Shown in pieces: positions 27,486 to 33,294 of a DNA stretch of 64,000 nt. Each line of letters starts with the position of its first letter. The stretch's first letter is position 1. A program made the position numbers and the translations under genes. Origin of the DNA: Mesorhizobium sp. J428 (GTDB lineage Bacteria > Pseudomonadota > Alphaproteobacteria > Rhizobiales > Rhizobiaceae); assembly GCF_024699925.1 (NCBI RefSeq), contig NZ_JAJOMX010000001.1:1650001-1714000 (forward strand), in the 5' to 3' direction. The notes beneath the pieces are model-generated. The model ran no database searches and was not told the DNA's origin. It saw only the letters and a list, made by a program, of their open reading frames with translations.

Positions 27486-28892
27486 TCAGGAACGCAGCAG
27501 CCGCTTCTTCCGCCAAGGCGCGTTGGCCTCCCAGTCGCCGGCCATGATGCAGCCATAGGGCAGCACTTCGTCGACGATCTCGGCAAGGCCATAGTCCTCG
27601 ATCTGCCGACGGACGGCGGACGCGCTCTTGTAGGCGCTCGGCAGTTCCGAGATGTCGGTGACACCCGAAAAGAACCGCGCGTCGATGCCCTTCGTTTCCT
27701 CGGCGAAGATCTCCTCGACGCTCCGGTGGCCCTGAAGCCGCTTGTGCTGGGTGCGCGAGAAGTTGCGCCCCGCGCCGTGCGGCGAGAAGCCCAATCCATG
27801 CGCTGCATCCTTTCCGCGCGCGATCAGCACCGGCTCCGCCATATTGAGCGGGATGAGCGTCAGGTCGGTCGCGTCGTCCGCCCAGTTATCGAAGGCGGGC
27901 GTCGCTCCCTTGCCGTGGTAGAACAGGCCGTCCGTGCGCCGGAAGACGAAATTGTGCTCGTTCCAGAACCGGTCGCCGACCTTGGCGGAAAGACGCTCCG
28001 CCGCGAGGTCGTGGATCAGTTCGTGGTTCGCCTTCGTCCAGGCGCGGATCGTCTGCAGCGCGTCCCAGTAGCTCTCGCCTTCCTGCGTGTCGGCGGGAAT
28101 CCAGGCGTTCTGGGGCAGGGTCGCCGGCGACAGCCGCCTGCGGAAGTCCTCTGCGATCTTCATGCCGCGGGAATAGAGCCGTGCGCCCGGCGCCCGCGAA
28201 CCGTGATGGGTCACAAGCGCCGTCTCGCCGGTCGACTTCAGCGTGCCGACGAAGGCGAAGTGGTTGCCGTCGCCCTGCGTACCGAAATGCTCGATCGCCA
28301 CGCTCATGTTGTCGCGCAGATAAGGATTGGCGTCGATTCGCGCGGCAAGCTCCGCCGGCGGCCGAATCTGCTGGCCGCGCGGCCGCCCGCCGGGTCCGAA
28401 ATGCGTCACCGCATGGACCGCGTCGAGCAGGGCGGCAGGCGACACGCCCGGAAAGATCGAGATCGCCATCGAGCAGCAGATGTCGGCCGAGTGCATGCCG
28501 GGATGAATGGCCTCGGAGACCACCACGCCTCCGACCGGAATCGTCCCAAGAGGGCCCGCCGGGCAGGCGTCGGGCATGATCGCGCCGGCGCGCACCACCG
28601 GCGTGCGCATCAGCACGCGCATGGAGTTGCTCACAGCCGCGACGTTCGCCGCCTCGTGGTCGTTCTCGGCCGCGATGTTGACGTGGAACGACACCGCGTC
28701 CTGCGCATGCAGCGGGATCGCCGGCGGCGGCTCGAAAGCTCGCGCAGCCGCGATCGCCTCGGCATGGGAGCCGCCGCGCGCGAGCACCTCGTTGCCGGCC
28801 GCCAGCGCGTCACGGAACCACTTGCCCTGCGCCAGTCCGGCGTCGATCAGATCCTGTCCACTCAGCACGTCAACCATCTCATCCATCCACAT
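27486..28892 (-). CDS. rtcB: RNA-splicing ligase RtcB
   Basis: 468 residues. RtcB joins a 2',3'-cyclic phosphate (via 3'-phosphate) to a 5'-OH RNA end using GTP and Mn2+. Motifs: HPGMHSADICCSMAI (near residue 130; metal Cys in the place of DIGCGM), GDGNHFAFVG (near 208), VTHHGSRAPGARLYSRGM (near 228) and SPHGAGRNFSRTQHKRL (near 370; the His that takes GMP). Several ATG codons cluster at the start (28892, 28886, 28877), so the exact start is uncertain. It is the distal gene after rsr and the Y RNA array; no rtcA cyclase is seen. The role is repair of cleaved RNAs such as tRNAs. Confidence 0.94.
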   Translation of the reverse strand: MWMDEMVDVLSGQDLIDAGLAQGKWFRDALAAGNEVLARGGSHAEAIAAARAFEPPPAIPLHAQDAVSFHVNIAAENDHEAANVAAVSNSMRVLMRTPVVRAGAIMPDACPAGPLGTIPVGGVVVSEAIHPGMHSADICCSMAISIFPGVSPAALLDAVHAVTHFGPGGRPRGQQIRPPAELAARIDANPYLRDNMSVAIEHFGTQGDGNHFAFVGTLKSTGETALVTHHGSRAPGARLYSRGMKIAEDFRRRLSPATLPQNAWIPADTQEGESYWDALQTIRAWTKANHELIHDLAAERLSAKVGDRFWNEHNFVFRRTDGLFYHGKGATPAFDNWADDATDLTLIPLNMAEPVLIARGKDAAHGLGFSPHGAGRNFSRTQHKRLQGHRSVEEIFAEETKGIDARFFSGVTDISELPSAYKSASAVRRQIEDYGLAEIVDEVLPYGCIMAGDWEANAPWRKKRLLRS

Positions 28893-28909: not shown

Positions 28910-29044
28910 CCAGCGACGGCAAGGGTTGCGAGACGATTTTCCGCCACTTCGCCAGGAACGAAGGGAGGTCTCGATCCTCCACGCCTTTCGGCCACCCCGT
29001 GAGGGGCTGCGTCTACCTGTAGTCCCGCCGGCATCCGGCGCTGG
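28910..29044 (-). ncRNA. Y RNA 7: Leu-tRNA-like class II mimic
   Basis: Outer stem CCAGCG/CGCTGG, then the conserved internal loop strands GGATGCC and CCCTTGCCG, then inner helix GCGGGAC/GTCTCGC. The tRNA-like domain is circularly permuted and opened in the D-loop: it begins with GGTAGACGCAGC (3' side of a Leu-type D-arm), a CCCC/GGGG arm, a GCC-GAAA-GGC variable arm, a T-arm GGAGG-ATCGAGA-CCTCC, acceptor CTTCG/CGAAG closed by TTCCTGG, and ends GTGGCGGAA (5' side of a Leu-type D-arm). The 3' strand motif deviates little from the other units; the 5' motif (GCCGGATG) deviates most. Confidence 0.75.
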
Positions 29045-29054
29045 TATCGATGGT

Positions 29055-29151
29055 CGGACGACAAGAGGCTGCAGGACTCTCGACAGGCCTTTCGGCCCGT
29101 CGGGCGGATTCGAACCGCCATTACCGATGTAGTCCTGCACGCATTCGTCCT
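29055..29151 (-). ncRNA. Y RNA 6: minimal T-arm unit
   Basis: Outer stem GGACGA/TCGTCC containing GACGAATGC, opposite CTCTTGTCG. Inner helix TGCAGGAC/GTCCTGCA is a perfect 8 bp. T-arm GGCGG-TTCGAAT-CCGCC, then a 9-bp acceptor-like helix CGACGGGCC/GGCCTGTCG closed by a GAAA tetraloop. No D-arm is left, making this the smallest unit (97 nt). Confidence 0.8.
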
Positions 29152-29156
29152 TCCGG

Positions 29157-29289
29157 GTTGGCGACAAGAAACGTCACGACGGTTTCTGAGCTACTTCGCA
29201 CCTATACGGATGCGAGGGGCGACTTGAACGCCCGACCTCCCGGCCGAAGCAGGGTGCTCTATCCTGTAGTCCTGACTGCATTCGCCCTT
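29157..29289 (-). ncRNA. Y RNA 5: tRNA mimic opened in the D-loop
   Basis: Outer stem GGCGA/TCGCC with GGCGAATGC opposite TTCTTGTCG; inner helix GTCAGGAC/GTCGTGAC (one mismatch). The insert starts GGATAGAGCA (3' D-arm), then an arm CCC...GGG, AGGTC variable loop, T-arm GGGCG-TTCAAGT-CGCCC, acceptor TCGCA/TGCGA, and ends TAGCTCAG (5' D-arm). GCTC and GAGC at its two ends can restore the D-stem, so the tRNA is complete but cut in the D-loop. Confidence 0.8.
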
Positions 29290-29295
29290 CCATGC

Positions 29296-29420
29296 CTGGC
29301 GGCAAGGATCGGCAGGACCGATCTGCTGCGCTACCGCGGTTGCCTGCGGGGGTGAATCGAACACCCGACCTCCCGCTCGAAAGCGGGCGCGCTACCTGTA
29401 GTCCTGCCTGCATCCGCCAA
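29296..29420 (-). ncRNA. Y RNA 4: Pro-tRNA-like mimic opened in the D-loop
   Basis: Outer stem TGGCGG/CCGCCA; GGCGGATGC opposite ATCCTTGCCG; inner helix GGCAGGAC/GTCCTGCC, 8 perfect pairs. Insert: GGTAGCGC (3' D-arm), anticodon-arm-like CCCGCT-TTCG-AGCGGG, AGGTC, T-arm GGGTG-TTCGATT-CACCC, acceptor CCGC/GCGG with loop, and TAGCGCAGC (5' D-arm). The GGTAGCGCGCC...GAGCGGGAGGTC order is like bacterial tRNA-Pro. Confidence 0.8.
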
Positions 29421-29430
29421 TGCATTTAGT

Positions 29431-29556
29431 GAGCGGCGACAAGGATGACGAAACTCCGGGAACCCCGCTCATGCCAGAGAGCGCCTGCGAGGTGGGGAGT
29501 CGAACCCCACGGGCAGTCCCGCCTTCGATGCTGTAGTTCCGTCTGCATTCGCCGCG
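29431..29556 (-). ncRNA. Y RNA 3: mimic with class II-like variable arm
   Basis: Outer stem GCGGCGA/TCGCCGC (7 perfect pairs) with GGCGAATGC opposite ATCCTTGTCG; inner helix GACGGAAC/GTTTCGTC (8 pairs, one G-T). T-arm TGGGG-TTCGACT-CCCCA preceded by a GGC...GCC hairpin resembling a class II variable arm. The acceptor strand CCTCGC can pair with GCGGGG across a larger loop; the D-arm is degenerate. Confidence 0.8.
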
Positions 29557-29561
29557 ATAGG

Positions 29562-29675
29562 AGGCGTGACGACAAGGTGTCGCGGAACGTTGCTATCCAA
29601 TCAGCTACGACGTCTCTCGACCTCGGCGGGAATCGAACCCGCATACATGTAGTTCCGCGTTCATTCGTCACGCAG
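29562..29675 (-). ncRNA. Y RNA 2: canonical YrlA-like tRNA mimic
   Basis: The cleanest unit. Outer stem GCGTGACGA/TCGTCACGC (9 perfect pairs) with GACGAATG opposite CACCTTGTCG; inner helix GCGGAAC/GTTCCGC (7 perfect). T-arm GCGGG-TTCGATT-CCCGC; acceptor CGAGGTC/GACGTCG (6 of 7) closed by GAGA; then TA and D-arm GCT-GATTGGAT-AGC. No anticodon arm. T half first, D half second: a circularly permuted tRNA, as described for bacterial YrlA. Confidence 0.88.
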
Positions 29676-29716
29676 TGATATTGTCTCCTTTTTCCAGTCT
29701 CTTTGGCAATCCCGAT

Positions 29717-29873
29717 ACGCGATGACGACAAGGGTGATGAAACGTCGCCCGCCTTTCGGCGAACACCTGCTCTATCCGCTGAGCTACGGGCCCGCAGTGG
29801 TGGACCCGGCGGGATTCGAACCCGCGACCTGGAGGGTAACAGCCTGTAGTACCATCGGCATTCGTCATGCGCT
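29717..29873 (-). ncRNA. Y RNA 1: first and longest unit, with CCA-like loop
   Basis: Outer stem ATGACGA/TCGTCAT (plus GCG/CGC past a bulge) with GACGAATGC opposite CACCCTTGTCG; inner helix GATGGTAC/GTTTCATC. T-arm GCGGG-TTCGAAT-CCCGC; acceptor CGGGTCC/GGGCCCG closed by ACCACTGC, so an ACCA follows the acceptor 3' strand as in a true tRNA; TA; D-arm GCTC-AGCGGATA-GAGC. A piece CTGTTACCCTCC before the AGGTC variable loop looks like an anticodon-arm relic. An extra CGCC-GAAA-GGCG hairpin follows the D-arm. Confidence 0.85.
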
Positions 29874-29911: not shown

Positions 29912-31471
29912 TCAGAGTTTGGTCGCCTCGATGGCGCGGACCCAGTGATCCGGGTCGTTACCGCTCGACACGAAGCCCGCGACCACGTCGAACACACGGT
30001 CCGAGAAGCCGCCGACGTTCAGCACGTCGCCGGAGCCCTTCGCCTGCGTCGTCGCATAAGGCTGGATGTCGATGCAGACCAGCTTGGCCTTCGGGTTCAT
30101 CGCCTTCAGCTTTCGCCATTCCTGCATCGTCCCCGTCCCCTGGTGCGGATGCGCCGTAGCGTCGACCCAGGACTGGTTGTCCGAGACGAACAGCACCAGG
30201 TCGACTTTTGCACGCTCGCTCACCAGCCGCGCCAGCGGAGCCGAACAGTTCGTTCCGCCACCGCCGATCGCCGCGAGCTTCGCCGCATTGGTCATCACCG
30301 TGTCGCGAACGTTGAGACGGATGTCCACCACATCGTTCTCGAACGGCAGGACCCGCGCCGTCGGGTTGCGCCGCAGGACGGACGCCGCCACCAGGGCAGC
30401 GACATCGATGCAGCGGACCGTCGAAGTGGATCCCTTGCGGAATCCCGTCACGGATGACCCCATCGACCCCGACACGTCCGGGCAGACGACCACGTTTCCG
30501 CCGAACGACGGAACGTTGGCGAGTGCCACGTCCATGGCGTCCTGCAACGCGTCCCGGACGACCTGTGGCACGGCCGGATCGACGTTCATGAACGCGACCA
30601 TCAGCTGGTAGGGGAAGACGCGCGAGCGCTTCACCTCACCGGCGTCGGCCAGCCGACGGGCAAGCCGCTCGGCAAACCCCTCCACCTCGAACACGCCGTG
30701 GCGTGCGAAGGTGTTGAGGTTCTGCCGCAGCATCTGCCAGCCGGCCGTCGCGGCGATCCCCACCCAGTGCTCCTTCGTCAGGGGCAGCGCGGTGAGCATC
30801 TGGAACGGCACGTTCGGCACCGGCAGCGACGGGTCGCGCTTGAACGCCTCGAACGCCTGCACAAGGCCGGGCAAAGCGTTCACATCGTGCGGCTTGCCGA
30901 TCAGATAGCCGTAGAGCGCTTCACGCGAGGCCGAGGCCGGCTTCGGGTGAACCATCTTCACGATATCCGCCAGCGACGGGTCGTTGCCGACCGCGGCGCG
31001 CATGATCTCGACGTCCGTGGCCCTCTCCAGCCACGAAAGCACCAGCCGCTTGGGACGCGTTCCGAGCGACTTGCGCCCGGTCGCACCCGACCGCATGACC
31101 TGCACGAAGGTGCGCAGCATCTTGCCGTTCTTCACGATCCGGCCGAACGCGCGCTCGAACTGGTCGCCTTGCATCTGCGACAGGACAGCCAGCAGGAACG
31201 CCGGCATGTCCTTCATGTAGCCCTGCTCGAAGGCATGCACGGCGGTCTTGGCCAGGAACTCCGGCTCGACCTGCCATGCCAGCTTCGTGACCTCGTCCAG
31301 CTGCTCCCGCGCATCCGCGTAGAAGGTCGCGTTGAACGTTCCCGTCGCAGCGAGCTGCGCGAGAGCCTGATGCAGCGTCAAGCCGTAGGCCGGCGCGCCC
31401 TCATGGTTCGTCGCGTCGGTGCGCGGGAGCAGCTTTCCCCTGATCGCCGCAAACACGGATTTGTTTGCCAT
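29912..31471 (-). CDS. rsr: Ro60 ortholog Rsr (TROVE domain protein)
   Basis: 519 residues from ATG 31471, preferred because AGAAGGA lies 9 bases upstream; in-frame ATGs at 31480 and 31489 are too close to that site. The N-terminal two thirds are the helical-repeat TROVE ring (LTLHQALAQLAATGTFNATFY near residue 30; GYMKDMPAFLLAVLSQMQGD near 85). A von Willebrand A-like domain follows with the MIDAS DVSGSMGSS near 337 and GGGTNCSAPLARL near 405. Ro60 rings bind misfolded RNA in the hole and Y RNA on the outside; in bacteria they work with PNPase and in stress responses. First gene of the sigma-54 operon leading to the Y RNAs and rtcB. Confidence 0.95.
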   Translation of the reverse strand: MANKSVFAAIRGKLLPRTDATNHEGAPAYGLTLHQALAQLAATGTFNATFYADAREQLDEVTKLAWQVEPEFLAKTAVHAFEQGYMKDMPAFLLAVLSQMQGDQFERAFGRIVKNGKMLRTFVQVMRSGATGRKSLGTRPKRLVLSWLERATDVEIMRAAVGNDPSLADIVKMVHPKPASASREALYGYLIGKPHDVNALPGLVQAFEAFKRDPSLPVPNVPFQMLTALPLTKEHWVGIAATAGWQMLRQNLNTFARHGVFEVEGFAERLARRLADAGEVKRSRVFPYQLMVAFMNVDPAVPQVVRDALQDAMDVALANVPSFGGNVVVCPDVSGSMGSSVTGFRKGSTSTVRCIDVAALVAASVLRRNPTARVLPFENDVVDIRLNVRDTVMTNAAKLAAIGGGGTNCSAPLARLVSERAKVDLVLFVSDNQSWVDATAHPHQGTGTMQEWRKLKAMNPKAKLVCIDIQPYATTQAKGSGDVLNVGGFSDRVFDVVAGFVSSGNDPDHWVRAIEATKL

Positions 31472-31505
31472 CGTTCTCATCCTTCTCATTCACGGCATAC
31501 TCAGA

Positions 31506-31520
31506 TCAAAAGGCGTGCCA
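31506..31520 (-). promoter_or_regulatory. Sigma-54 promoter (-24/-12) of the rsr-Y RNA-rtcB operon
   Basis: Minus strand TGGCACGCCTTTTGA: matches the consensus TGGCACG-N4-TTGC at every fixed position but the last (A for C) with exact spacing. It lies 35 bp upstream of the rsr start and faces the divergent rtcR, whose product is a sigma-54 activator. This makes the regulation of the operon directly readable. Confidence 0.85.
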
Positions 31521-31680: not shown

Positions 31681-33294
31681 ATGAAGCGCCGTGTCGTGAT
31701 CAGCATCCTCGGTACCACGCTCGACGCCGGCGGCCGCGACGACCGCTGGAAGCGCTGGCGGCCAACGGTCTCCCTCTGCATGCAACCCAGCCTCTTCATC
31801 GACCGGCTTGAGCTCATCCACGGTCCGGGATCCGGGAGGCTGGCGAGACAGATCGTCGGCGACATTGAGCAGGTCTCCCCCGGAACGGAGGTACGCGAGC
31901 ATCTGATGAGCCTGCGCGACCACTGGGATTTCAGCGAGGTCTACACGAACCTGCGCGACTTTGCCCGCGCCTATATCTTTGACACCGAGCGGGAGGACTA
32001 CCTCGTCAACATCACCACCGGCACGCATGTCGCACAGATCTGCTGGTTCCTGCTCACGGAGGCGCGCTTCATCCCCGCCCGGCTGCTGCAACTGTCGCCG
32101 CCGCCACGCCGAACCTCACCCGAGGATCCCGTCGAGATTGTCGGCAGCCATTCGATCATCGATCTCGACCTGTCGCGCTATGATGCCATCGCGACGCGCT
32201 TCGCCGCCGAGCGCGACGAGGCGACGTCCTTTCTCAAATCCGGCATCGCGACGCGCAGCCCCGCTTTCAACCAGATGATCGACCAGATCGAGAAGGTCGC
32301 GATCCGCTCGCGCGCGCCGGTGCTGCTGACCGGTCCCACCGGCGCCGGGAAGTCGCAACTCGCCAAGCGGATATATGAGCTTAAGAAGGCGCAGCGTCAG
32401 GTTTCGGGCGATTTCATCGAGGTCAACTGCGCGACGCTGCGCGGCGACCAGGCAATGTCGACGCTGTTCGGCCATGTGAAGGGCGCCTTCACCGGCGCGC
32501 AGGCCGAACGGGCGGGGCTGATGAAGTCCGCCGACAAGGGCGTGCTGTTCCTCGACGAGATCGGCGAGCTCGGACTGGATGAGCAGGCAATGTGCCTGCG
32601 GGCCATCGAGGAGAAGCGGTTCCTGCCTGTCGGCGCCGATCGCGACACGACGTCGGACTTCCAGCTCCTGGCTGGCACCAATCGCGACCTCTCCGTCAGT
32701 GTCAGGGAGGGCCGGTTCCGCGAGGACCTGTTCGCCCGGCTTAATCTTTGGACCTTCAGCCTGCCGGCGCTGAAGGACCGCAAGGAAGACATCGAGCCGA
32801 ACCTGGAGTTCGAGTTGCGGCGATACAGTGAGCGCGAAGGCCAGAACGTCACCTTCAACAGGGAGGCGCGCGAGGCCTATCTCCGGTTTGCCGCGGCACC
32901 GGAAGCCACGTGGCGCGCCAACTTCCGGGACCTGTCCGCCTCGGTGACGCGCATGGCGACTTTGGCGCCGCAAGGCCGCATCAACGAGGAGACCGTCCGC
33001 GACGAGATCGCGCGCCTCCGCCTCCTGTGGTCCACGGGAGCCAACACTCCCGGGAGTGAAGATGTGCTTGTTGAGCTTCTTGGATCCGATCGCGCCGAGG
33101 CTATCGACCTGTTCGAAAGCGCGCAGCTGGCAACCGTGATCTCCGCGTGCCGGGAGACTGGCTCACTCAGTGCTGCCGGACGACGGCTGTTCGCGGTCTC
33201 CCGCTTGGAAAAGACAAGCAGCAACGACGCTGACCGCCTGCGAAAATACCTGGCTCGGTTTGGATTGAGCTTCGACATGGTCGTTCGGCCATGA
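31681..33294 (+). CDS. rtcR: RtcR, sigma-54-dependent activator with CARF sensor domain
   Basis: 537 residues. N-terminal about 180 residues form the CARF-type sensor of RtcR (MKRRVVISILGTTLDAGG; NITTGTHVAQICWFLL near 110). The AAA+ domain has Walker A GPTGAGKSQLAKRI (near 218), the GAFTGA loop that contacts sigma-54 (FGHVKGAFTGAQAER, near 262), Walker B GVLFLDEIGELG (near 285) and an arginine-finger region RFREDLFARLNLW. A C-terminal helix-turn-helix is suggested by ISACRETGSLSAAGRRLF. In Salmonella RtcR the CARF domain senses cleaved tRNA ends; here it should drive rsr, the Y RNAs and rtcB. Confidence 0.95.
   Translation: MKRRVVISILGTTLDAGGRDDRWKRWRPTVSLCMQPSLFIDRLELIHGPGSGRLARQIVGDIEQVSPGTEVREHLMSLRDHWDFSEVYTNLRDFARAYIFDTEREDYLVNITTGTHVAQICWFLLTEARFIPARLLQLSPPPRRTSPEDPVEIVGSHSIIDLDLSRYDAIATRFAAERDEATSFLKSGIATRSPAFNQMIDQIEKVAIRSRAPVLLTGPTGAGKSQLAKRIYELKKAQRQVSGDFIEVNCATLRGDQAMSTLFGHVKGAFTGAQAERAGLMKSADKGVLFLDEIGELGLDEQAMCLRAIEEKRFLPVGADRDTTSDFQLLAGTNRDLSVSVREGRFREDLFARLNLWTFSLPALKDRKEDIEPNLEFELRRYSEREGQNVTFNREAREAYLRFAAAPEATWRANFRDLSASVTRMATLAPQGRINEETVRDEIARLRLLWSTGANTPGSEDVLVELLGSDRAEAIDLFESAQLATVISACRETGSLSAAGRRLFAVSRLEKTSSNDADRLRKYLARFGLSFDMVVRP

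Follow-up and report, generated by a model that had tools for sequence, protein, structure and literature searches.

Seven predicted tandem Y RNA units with differing, largely tRNA-like heads between rsr and rtcB in Mesorhizobium sp. J428

Y RNAs are known as tRNA mimics. Here, we describe an array of seven predicted Y RNAs between rsr and rtcB of Mesorhizobium sp. J428 (NCBI RefSeq assembly GCF_024699925.1, contig NZ_JAJOMX010000001.1, positions 1,650,001 to 1,714,000, forward strand). Five of the seven heads match circularly permuted host tRNAs, and these are predicted to be opened at two different points. Throughout, the window is the whole 64,000-nucleotide stretch, and the units are U1 to U7 (Table 1).

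The array and its locus

The gap between rsr and rtcB is filled by seven head-to-tail units on the minus strand. All seven carry 5' GNCGRAUG, GRACUACA after the inner helix and 3' CYUUGYCG, which together form a conserved basal stem and core; U1 has one mismatch in the core (GUACUACA for GRACUACA) and U7 one in the basal stem. With the Rfam YrlA model (RF02553), five units matched at E ≤ 0.043 (46.4 bits for U1 and 37.9 for U4; U2, U6 and U3 in Table 1), none of them reaching the gathering score of 69 bits, and U5 and U7 gave no match at E ≤ 1. When one mismatch at most was allowed, the Y motif occurred in the host genome only at six of the seven units; the seventh, U4, departs from it at two positions, and matches that loose often arise by chance. 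A sequence-only reading had placed seven tandem minus-strand units in this gap and taken them for a Y RNA array beside rsr; direct reading and a motif script confirmed the arrangement, and the five covariance-model matches, all under the gathering score, speak for the assignment.

Table 1. Predicted features of the array and its locus, with positions in the window (R1, R2 and R3 are rotated host-tRNA models, defined in the text)
Feature	Positions	Strand	Evidence
U1: Y RNA, permuted tRNA head	29724..29866	-	YrlA model, host-tRNA models, covariation
U1 acceptor loop ACCACUGC: discriminator-CCA (tRNA positions 73-76), then 4 nt	29794..29801	-	direct reading
U1 extra hairpin, GAAA-capped, between D arm and Y stem	29744..29766	-	direct reading, alignment
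U2: classical YrlA layout (T arm, acceptor hairpin, D arm)	29568..29669	-	YrlA 61.0 bits
U3: T arm and near-invariant hairpin GCGCUCUCUGGCAUGAGCG	29435..29553	-	YrlA 24.2 bits; fold of 20 type sequences
U4: permuted tRNA head opened in D loop before G18G19	29298..29418	-	R1 over R2 and R3; covariation
U5: permuted tRNA head opened in D loop (GAUAGAGC ... GUAGCUCAG)	29160..29286	-	R1 over R2 and R3; break 17/18
U6: minimal head, T arm adjoining GAAA-capped acceptor-like hairpin	29057..29149	-	YrlA 40.6 bits; fold of 18 type sequences
U7: permuted class II tRNA-Leu head, D-loop opening, long variable arm GCCGAAAGGC kept	28915..29039	-	circular alignment
rsr (Ro60-related protein)	29912..31489	-	Pfam, structure-sequence match
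rtcB (RNA ligase family)	27486..28892	-	Pfam RtcB 118.6 bits (cut-off 27)
rtcR (sigma-54 activator, RtcR sensor domain), divergent	31681..33294	+	NCBIfam RNA_repair_RtcR 819.1 bits (cut-off 650)
sigma-54 -24/-12 promoter-like site TGGCACGCCTTTTGAT, immediately upstream of rsr	31505..31520	-	one mismatch

The head of U1 comprises an anticodon-like hairpin (29845-29833; 3 bp, 7-nt loop CUGUUAC), a T arm (29825-29809), a 7-bp acceptor stem (3' strand 29808-29802, 5' strand 29793-29787) with NCCA, and a D arm. Its extra hairpin is found in the ~143-nt forms of unit 1 and missing from the 124-nt forms in close relatives. An anticodon arm is lacking from U2, from U3, which also has no acceptor stem, and from U6, which also has no D arm. 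In U4, the anticodon arm is capped by a UUCG tetraloop.

The product of rsr matched Pfam vWA_Ro60 and TROVE, both over cut-off, and the Deinococcus radiodurans Rsr structure 2nvo (E 1.6e-17). The array thus lies adjacent to an rsr gene, as expected of YrlA RNAs; the protein scored under the NCBIfam Rsr equivalog cut-off (63.4 bits versus 900), and the rtcB product under those of the NCBIfam RtcB models. The open reading frame list showed no rtcA next to rtcB, although no profile search was aimed at one. The pattern used for the sigma-54 site occurred seven times over 64 kb, against a chance mean of 10.2. Since this number is no higher than chance, the evidence for the site is its position and conservation: with up to two mismatches, a site lies upstream of rsr in all 35 named loci of relatives introduced below, where 1.3 would be expected (mononucleotide shuffles). 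RtcR together with a sigma-54 promoter-like site upstream of rsr and rtcB is the make-up of an RtcR-controlled RNA repair operon.

Comparison of the heads with rotated host tRNAs

A search of the host genome with the Rfam tRNA model gave 43 tRNAs. Each unit was read as a circle, aligned with these tRNAs and compared with 200 dinucleotide shuffles, giving z values of 11.0 (U1), 9.7 (U7), 5.8 (U4), 4.5 (U5) and 3.7 (U2). U7 aligned best with host tRNA-Leu(CAG), scoring 64.0 rotated and 53.5 unrotated (shuffles: mean 29.5, standard deviation 3.6); the unrotated score is high because most of its tRNA is contiguous.

Three covariance models were built from 16 of the 43 host tRNAs, with no Y RNA included, and opened in the D loop before G18G19 (R1), between the D stem and the anticodon stem (R2) or in the anticodon loop (R3). 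At E ≤ 1 (E-values of these models are rough), they matched U1, U2, U4 and U5 and nothing else in the window; U3 and U6 were unmatched, as was U7 with these class I models, so that its Leu assignment rests on alignments and relatives. Scores for R1/R2/R3 were 47.1/67.1/64.8 bits in U1, 21.6/29.8/31.2 in U2, 58.1/36.3/28.0 in U4 and 43.3/19.5/13.4 in U5. The models favor different breaks unit by unit, and the tRNA is therefore opened at different places in different units. As judged from sequence, U1 and U2 are predicted to open on the anticodon side, like known YrlA, and U4, U5 and U7 in the D loop, directly ahead of G18G19. The per-unit circular alignment that included relatives (see below) placed the break of window U4 at 20/21, though the models favor the D loop, and window U2 was not significant there.

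A YrlA-type head, with T, acceptor and D arms and an anticodon-side opening, fits U1 and U2. The order of a permuted tRNA (3' half, intervening sequence, 5' half) fits U1, U2, U4 and U5 by the models and U7 by alignment, and does not fit U3 or U6. The Rfam tRNA model itself gave a match spanning two units (29618-29793; 25.5 bits, cut-off 29), composed of the D arm of U1 and the T arm of U2, which is what a permuted tRNA in every unit would give. ARAGORN called no tRNA and no tmRNA in the window.

Arrays in relatives

Relatives were gathered by their Rsr protein and comprised 35 named loci (GTDB species) and 30 loci found in 29 of 397 genomes from the order, among them the window's own; with the window, these 66 loci gave 58 distinct arrays (loci are referred to below as L027 and the like). 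Seven units were detected in nine arrays, six in six, five in 10, four in nine, three in 12, two in 10 and one in two; the unit finder was a motif script, and these sizes are therefore lower bounds. All seven types are present in L027, a near relative, and follow one another there as in the window. Units of L027, L030 and L051 scored 77.5, 72.4 and 69.6 bits with RF02553; in L027 it is the second unit, the counterpart of U2, which passes the gathering score and has a circular-alignment z of 10.8.

In the 35 named loci, R1, R2 and R3 were compared at 108 places, after removal of four clusters at three ordinary tRNA genes. A D-loop break was preferred by at least 10 bits at 43 places in 27 loci (smallest margin, 17.8) and an anticodon-side break at 55 places in 34 loci; 10 places were undecided, and 27 loci held both break types. 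One unit can yield two places, and scores absent from the table (E above 0.01) were set to zero, so that the largest margins are inflated. In the circular alignment, 232 of 243 units were tested with 60 shuffles each, 11 having too short an inner part. Of these, 153 lay above all 60 shuffles with z ≥ 4, and in 141 of the 153 the rotated score exceeded the unrotated one by at least 6; their breaks fell in the D loop (53 units), directly after the D stem (66), or elsewhere or at an undefined site (34).

Units of relatives were assigned to window units by overall similarity alone. An earlier "Leu type" label (17 units) had used the isotype itself and so cannot show Leu identity, which is why the units were reassigned. 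Among the 16 unit-7 relatives thus obtained, Leu was the nearest isotype in every one and the break fell in the D loop in 15, the remaining one not being above shuffles. The break fell in the D loop in 13 of the 16 unit-4 relatives (three not above shuffles) and elsewhere than in the D loop in 65 of the 66 unit-1 relatives.

Type-wise alignments showed pairing kept under sequence change. The U4 type (19 sequences) had 98.1% of cells paired and both-side changes in 16 of 33 pairs, the U1 type (24 sequences; alignment A8, which leaves out L067, L084 and L061) 98.5% and 12 of 31, and the U7 type (16 sequences) 96.5% and 15 of 34. These values were reached by none of 500 shuffles, and one further U7-type measure by one of 500; the shuffles ignore relatedness, and the counts were made on given structures. 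Slid controls had 35 to 58% of cells paired. In the U4 type, the D stem joining the two head ends showed one both-side change, C-G to A-U in three sequences. At the place of the anticodon arm, the U1 type has a 3-bp hairpin with a loop mostly of 7 nt and a varying triplet; one pair of its stem covaries, with A-U for G-C in 8 of 24 sequences and no pairing in one, and another fails in 4 of 24. Both-side changes occurred in 11 of 23 predicted pairs of the U6 type (18 sequences) and in 5 of 29 pairs of the U3 type (20 sequences). The compensatory changes support the predicted folds.

The unit-3 type was present in the window and in 28 of the 58 arrays. Its hairpin is nearly invariant, with the exact 19-mer GCGCTCTCTGGCACGAGCG in 20 units, and resembles a D arm with a GG-bearing loop, yet there is no acceptor. 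The constancy of the sequence suggests contact with a protein.

Acceptor loops were collected from 84 units with a loose pattern (D arm 3' of the T arm). The acceptor stem lay at the exact tRNA place in 81 units, including at least four D-loop-break units (L029 4, L043 3, L053 5, L068 4); the other three, with fewer than six of the seven acceptor pairs, were dropped. Loop length ranged from 0 to 98 nt. In five unit-1-type units (L032 6627-6840, L038 6623-6853, L039 6624-6855, L041 6629-6804 and L059 6622-6816), the loop is enlarged to 40 to 98 nt; the insert directly follows N-CC(A), with a near-identical TCCTGCTT next in four of the five, and is thus tolerated at the position of the intervening sequence in a permuted pre-tRNA. 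The second units of L031, L033, L038, L039, L048 and L057 carry AGC-UUCAGGU-GCU, which contains the exact anticodon loop of host tRNA-Leu(CAG), UUCAGGU, and five of the six also have a GGCCGAGUGGU-like D arm.

The D-loop class also recurred outside the family, among 37 further loci that overlap in part, for example in L077 (R1 57.2 versus R2 29.0 bits) and L076 (50.9 versus 25.1), where R1 and R2 alone were run. A class-wide survey for the short Y motif found it in 14 of 385 genomes, with 23 in the backwards control; as the control matched more, this survey by itself says nothing about spread beyond Rsr-bearing relatives. An Rfam survey of relatives gave matches at E ≤ 0.01 in 13 of 61 genomes and also in 9 of 14 control genomes, and was not counted as evidence. 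L058, from a Candidatus Kapaibacterium metagenome-assembled genome of another phylum, has an rsr 58% identical to that of the window and unit-1-like RNAs (R2 52.6 and 48.7 bits), through either gene transfer or a binning error.

The sequence-only reading had also proposed a tRNA-like domain as in YrlA and inner pairing kept despite changing sequence. The former is borne out by the five heads that test as tRNA-like, the latter by the helix covariation among relatives. Of the T arm and acceptor hairpin proposed for each unit, the T arm is present in all seven by eye, and the acceptor helix is lacking in U3. A D arm was expected in most units; U6 has none, and those of U4, U5 and U7 have the stem divided between the two head ends and are therefore not hairpins. 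That reading had thought seven copies unusual, which the relatives contradict (nine of the 58 arrays have seven and 25 have five or more), and the idea of an exceptional copy number is ruled out. The circular permutation of the heads, the two opening points, the tRNA-Leu with its long variable arm, and the NCCA and 7-nt anticodon-like loop of U1 go beyond what it had described.

Possible roles and known systems

Five of the seven predicted Y RNAs match permuted host tRNAs and likely serve as tRNA-shaped handles. On balance, we think it probable that the array is a panel of such handles for several kinds of broken tRNA, which would dock on Rsr by the stem they share and, upon tRNA breakage, deliver tRNA-handling enzymes to it. 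The units, the common stem, the two opening points, covariation, recurrence across genera, and the RtcR gene with its sigma-54 site were computed here; the adaptor function draws on published work in Salmonella and Deinococcus. RtcR binds or senses tRNA halves with cyclic phosphate (PMC7790460), and YrlA is known to tether PNPase and to serve as a substrate for tRNA modification enzymes (PMC8394870). Going by such work, tRNA halves with a 2',3'-cyclic phosphate would switch on RtcR, the operon would be transcribed via RtcR and sigma-54, and each Y RNA would bind Rsr through its stem. The head would then recruit or occupy an enzyme that recognizes tRNA shape; PNPase is the published partner, and RtcB and tRNA-processing enzymes are guesses. 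The differing heads may, we infer, cover several tRNA architectures: U1 a tRNA body that has a CCA as well as an anticodon-like loop; U4 and, less clearly, U5 D-loop-opened tRNA bodies of a mostly tetraloop-bearing kind, which should withstand the anticodon nucleases behind the alarm; U7 a class II tRNA; and U2, U3 and U6 partial heads. A 4-nt anticodon-arm loop was found in 27 of 38 non-Leu D-loop-break units, 17 of them GNRA; only non-Leu units were counted, since in some Leu-type units the variable arm had been picked instead, and window U4 stands outside the 38 owing to its 20/21 break. The tetraloop in place of an anticodon loop suggests heads built to survive anticodon nucleases.

Several results weigh against a tRNA-shaped panel of handles. 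In the circular alignment, U3 (z 1.7) and U6 (z 1.8) do not exceed their shuffles, which, with the missing matches to the rotated models, rules out that all seven heads are tRNAs; among relatives, 31 of 33 unit-3-like and 16 of 21 unit-6-like units were likewise not above shuffles, and the panel is therefore not all tRNA. U2 does no better than its largest shuffle and its unrotated score, so its tRNA reading rests on the rotated models and the L027 counterpart. For the types of U1, U2, U4 and U5, the nearest isotype shifts between species, with a close runner-up, and the isotype match is firm for the Leu type only. Units with a D-loop break were found in only 29 of the 58 arrays; the full panel is therefore not required for the operon. 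Relatives were picked by similarity to the window Rsr and are not independent samples. The best anticodon-arm hairpin of U5 has a 7-nt loop. Salmonella YrlA is described as not cut by an anticodon nuclease (PMC7790460), so a protective loop may not be needed.

It is unlikely that the heads are decoys that soak up anticodon nucleases or other tRNA-attacking toxins and so shield real tRNAs. YrlA has a tRNA-like domain, its head may inhibit an anticodon nuclease, and a decoy role has been suggested for it (PMC7790460). U1 retains its 7-nt anticodon-like loop, and the six second units of relatives with the host tRNA-Leu(CAG) loop would also suit this role. The tetraloops of the 27 units fit an anticodon-loop decoy badly, and as a sole role it is rejected for most D-loop-break units; U2, U3 and U6 have no anticodon arm at all.

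U1 could also be a permuted tRNA precursor whose acceptor loop is excised as in the cell's permuted tmRNA, leaving a two-piece, CCA-ended tRNA-like RNA on Rsr; we consider this doubtful. Among the 81 acceptor loops, 47 start with N-CCA at the exact tRNA position, CCA standing at any other offset 0 to 2 times, and the host tmRNA gene has the layout of these loops (acceptor 3' strand, ACCA, spacer, acceptor 5' strand). The other 34 loops lack an exact N-CCA, direct reading found none in the acceptor loops of U4, U5 and U7, and the anticodon-like triplet shows no conservation. From its N-CCA end, U1 may be opened like the permuted tmRNA, and a bolder proposal, to our mind also improbable, takes U1 and its relatives for bacterial permuted tRNA genes. 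Their acceptor loop would be removed by the machinery behind the two-piece tmRNA, exposing a CCA end and giving a split, possibly charged tRNA on the Ro protein, with neighbors of anticodon-less and class II shape. The operon would then make artificial tRNAs under stress, which, if true, would sort, shield or replace broken tRNAs.

Duplication of one YrlA gene, with heads that diverged without separate roles and extra copies that only add dosage, seems to us quite improbable. It would suit the range of array sizes from one to seven, types that come and go, and the changing place of the D-loop type, which leads the array in L089 and precedes the last unit in L076. The types nevertheless recur across many arrays, with an identical order in the window and L027 and a comparable one in other long arrays; compensatory changes are present, the unit-7 type stays Leu-like throughout, and a shift of the break from the anticodon side to the D loop would be hard to reach by drift from one YrlA. 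That the region is a graveyard in which mobile elements inserting at tRNAs have left pieces of tRNA genes is hardly credible and was rejected, for although the pieces match tRNAs and ARAGORN called none in the window, every piece lies inside a conserved Y stem and keeps its pairing with both-side changes across genera, and the covariation contradicts relics.

A family with varied arms, two opening points and one clear isotype in a single operon lets the question of why Y RNAs mimic tRNA be split arm by arm, into which enzyme goes with each arm, whether the CCA and the anticodon loop matter, and why there is a class II copy. Mesorhizobium and its relatives are workable hosts for such questions. 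The array is also a natural set of tRNA permutations, whose folding, modification and recognition by RNase P could be compared.

Among known systems, the permuted tmRNA of Alphaproteobacteria (RF01849), present in the host genome, has the acceptor order of the N-CCA loops; U1 differs in that it is not called a tmRNA and matches the tmRNA_permuted model weakly (RF04321, RF01849; 30.2 bits versus a cut-off of 47). Permuted tRNA genes of algae and Thermofilum share with the permuted heads of the array the order 3' half, intervening sequence, 5' half. Of the four types described, one has a D-loop junction (20/21); intervening sequences are 1 to 74 bp long, and the genes yield working tRNAs after BHB splicing (PMC3978253). 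In the array, by comparison, the ends are held by the Y stem and the D-loop break is just before G18G19. The Rsr-Y RNA-PNPase complex of Deinococcus (RYPER) shares Rsr and Y RNAs with the array, and the adaptor idea is borrowed from it (PMC7790460, PMC8394870); the head types differ, and a PNPase link for the array would be by analogy only. The rsr-yrlBA-rtcBA operon of Salmonella has the same arrangement of RtcR, sigma-54 promoter, rsr, Y RNAs and rtcB (PMC7790460, PMC9879122), with two Y RNAs where the window has seven.

YrlA (RF02553; Salmonella structure PDB 6CU1) has, like the array, a conserved basal stem and core and a place beside rsr and rtcB. Its tRNA-like head has T, acceptor and D arms, as do the heads of U1 and U2, and in Salmonella it is a circular permutation of tRNA (PMC11472068), as predicted for five heads of the array. 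The array differs in its seven divergent heads in one operon, three of which are predicted to open in the D loop and not on the anticodon side, in the anticodon-like hairpin and NCCA added in U1, in the mimicry of a class II tRNA-Leu by U7, and in scores that all lie under the Rfam cut-off.

That YrlA mimics a permuted tRNA has thus been published before, and neither the operon nor the presence of Y RNAs beside rsr is new; Y RNAs near rsr were reportedly found by Chen in 2014 in more than 250 species. The literature searched, outside which the main bacterial Y RNA papers lay, described neither arrays of differing tRNA mimics nor Y RNAs opened in the D loop, and it mentioned no Y RNA that mimics a class II tRNA-Leu or encodes CCA. 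As far as that literature goes, what the array adds to YrlA is a set of different mimics in one place, a second break point, a class II Leu mimic and an encoded CCA.

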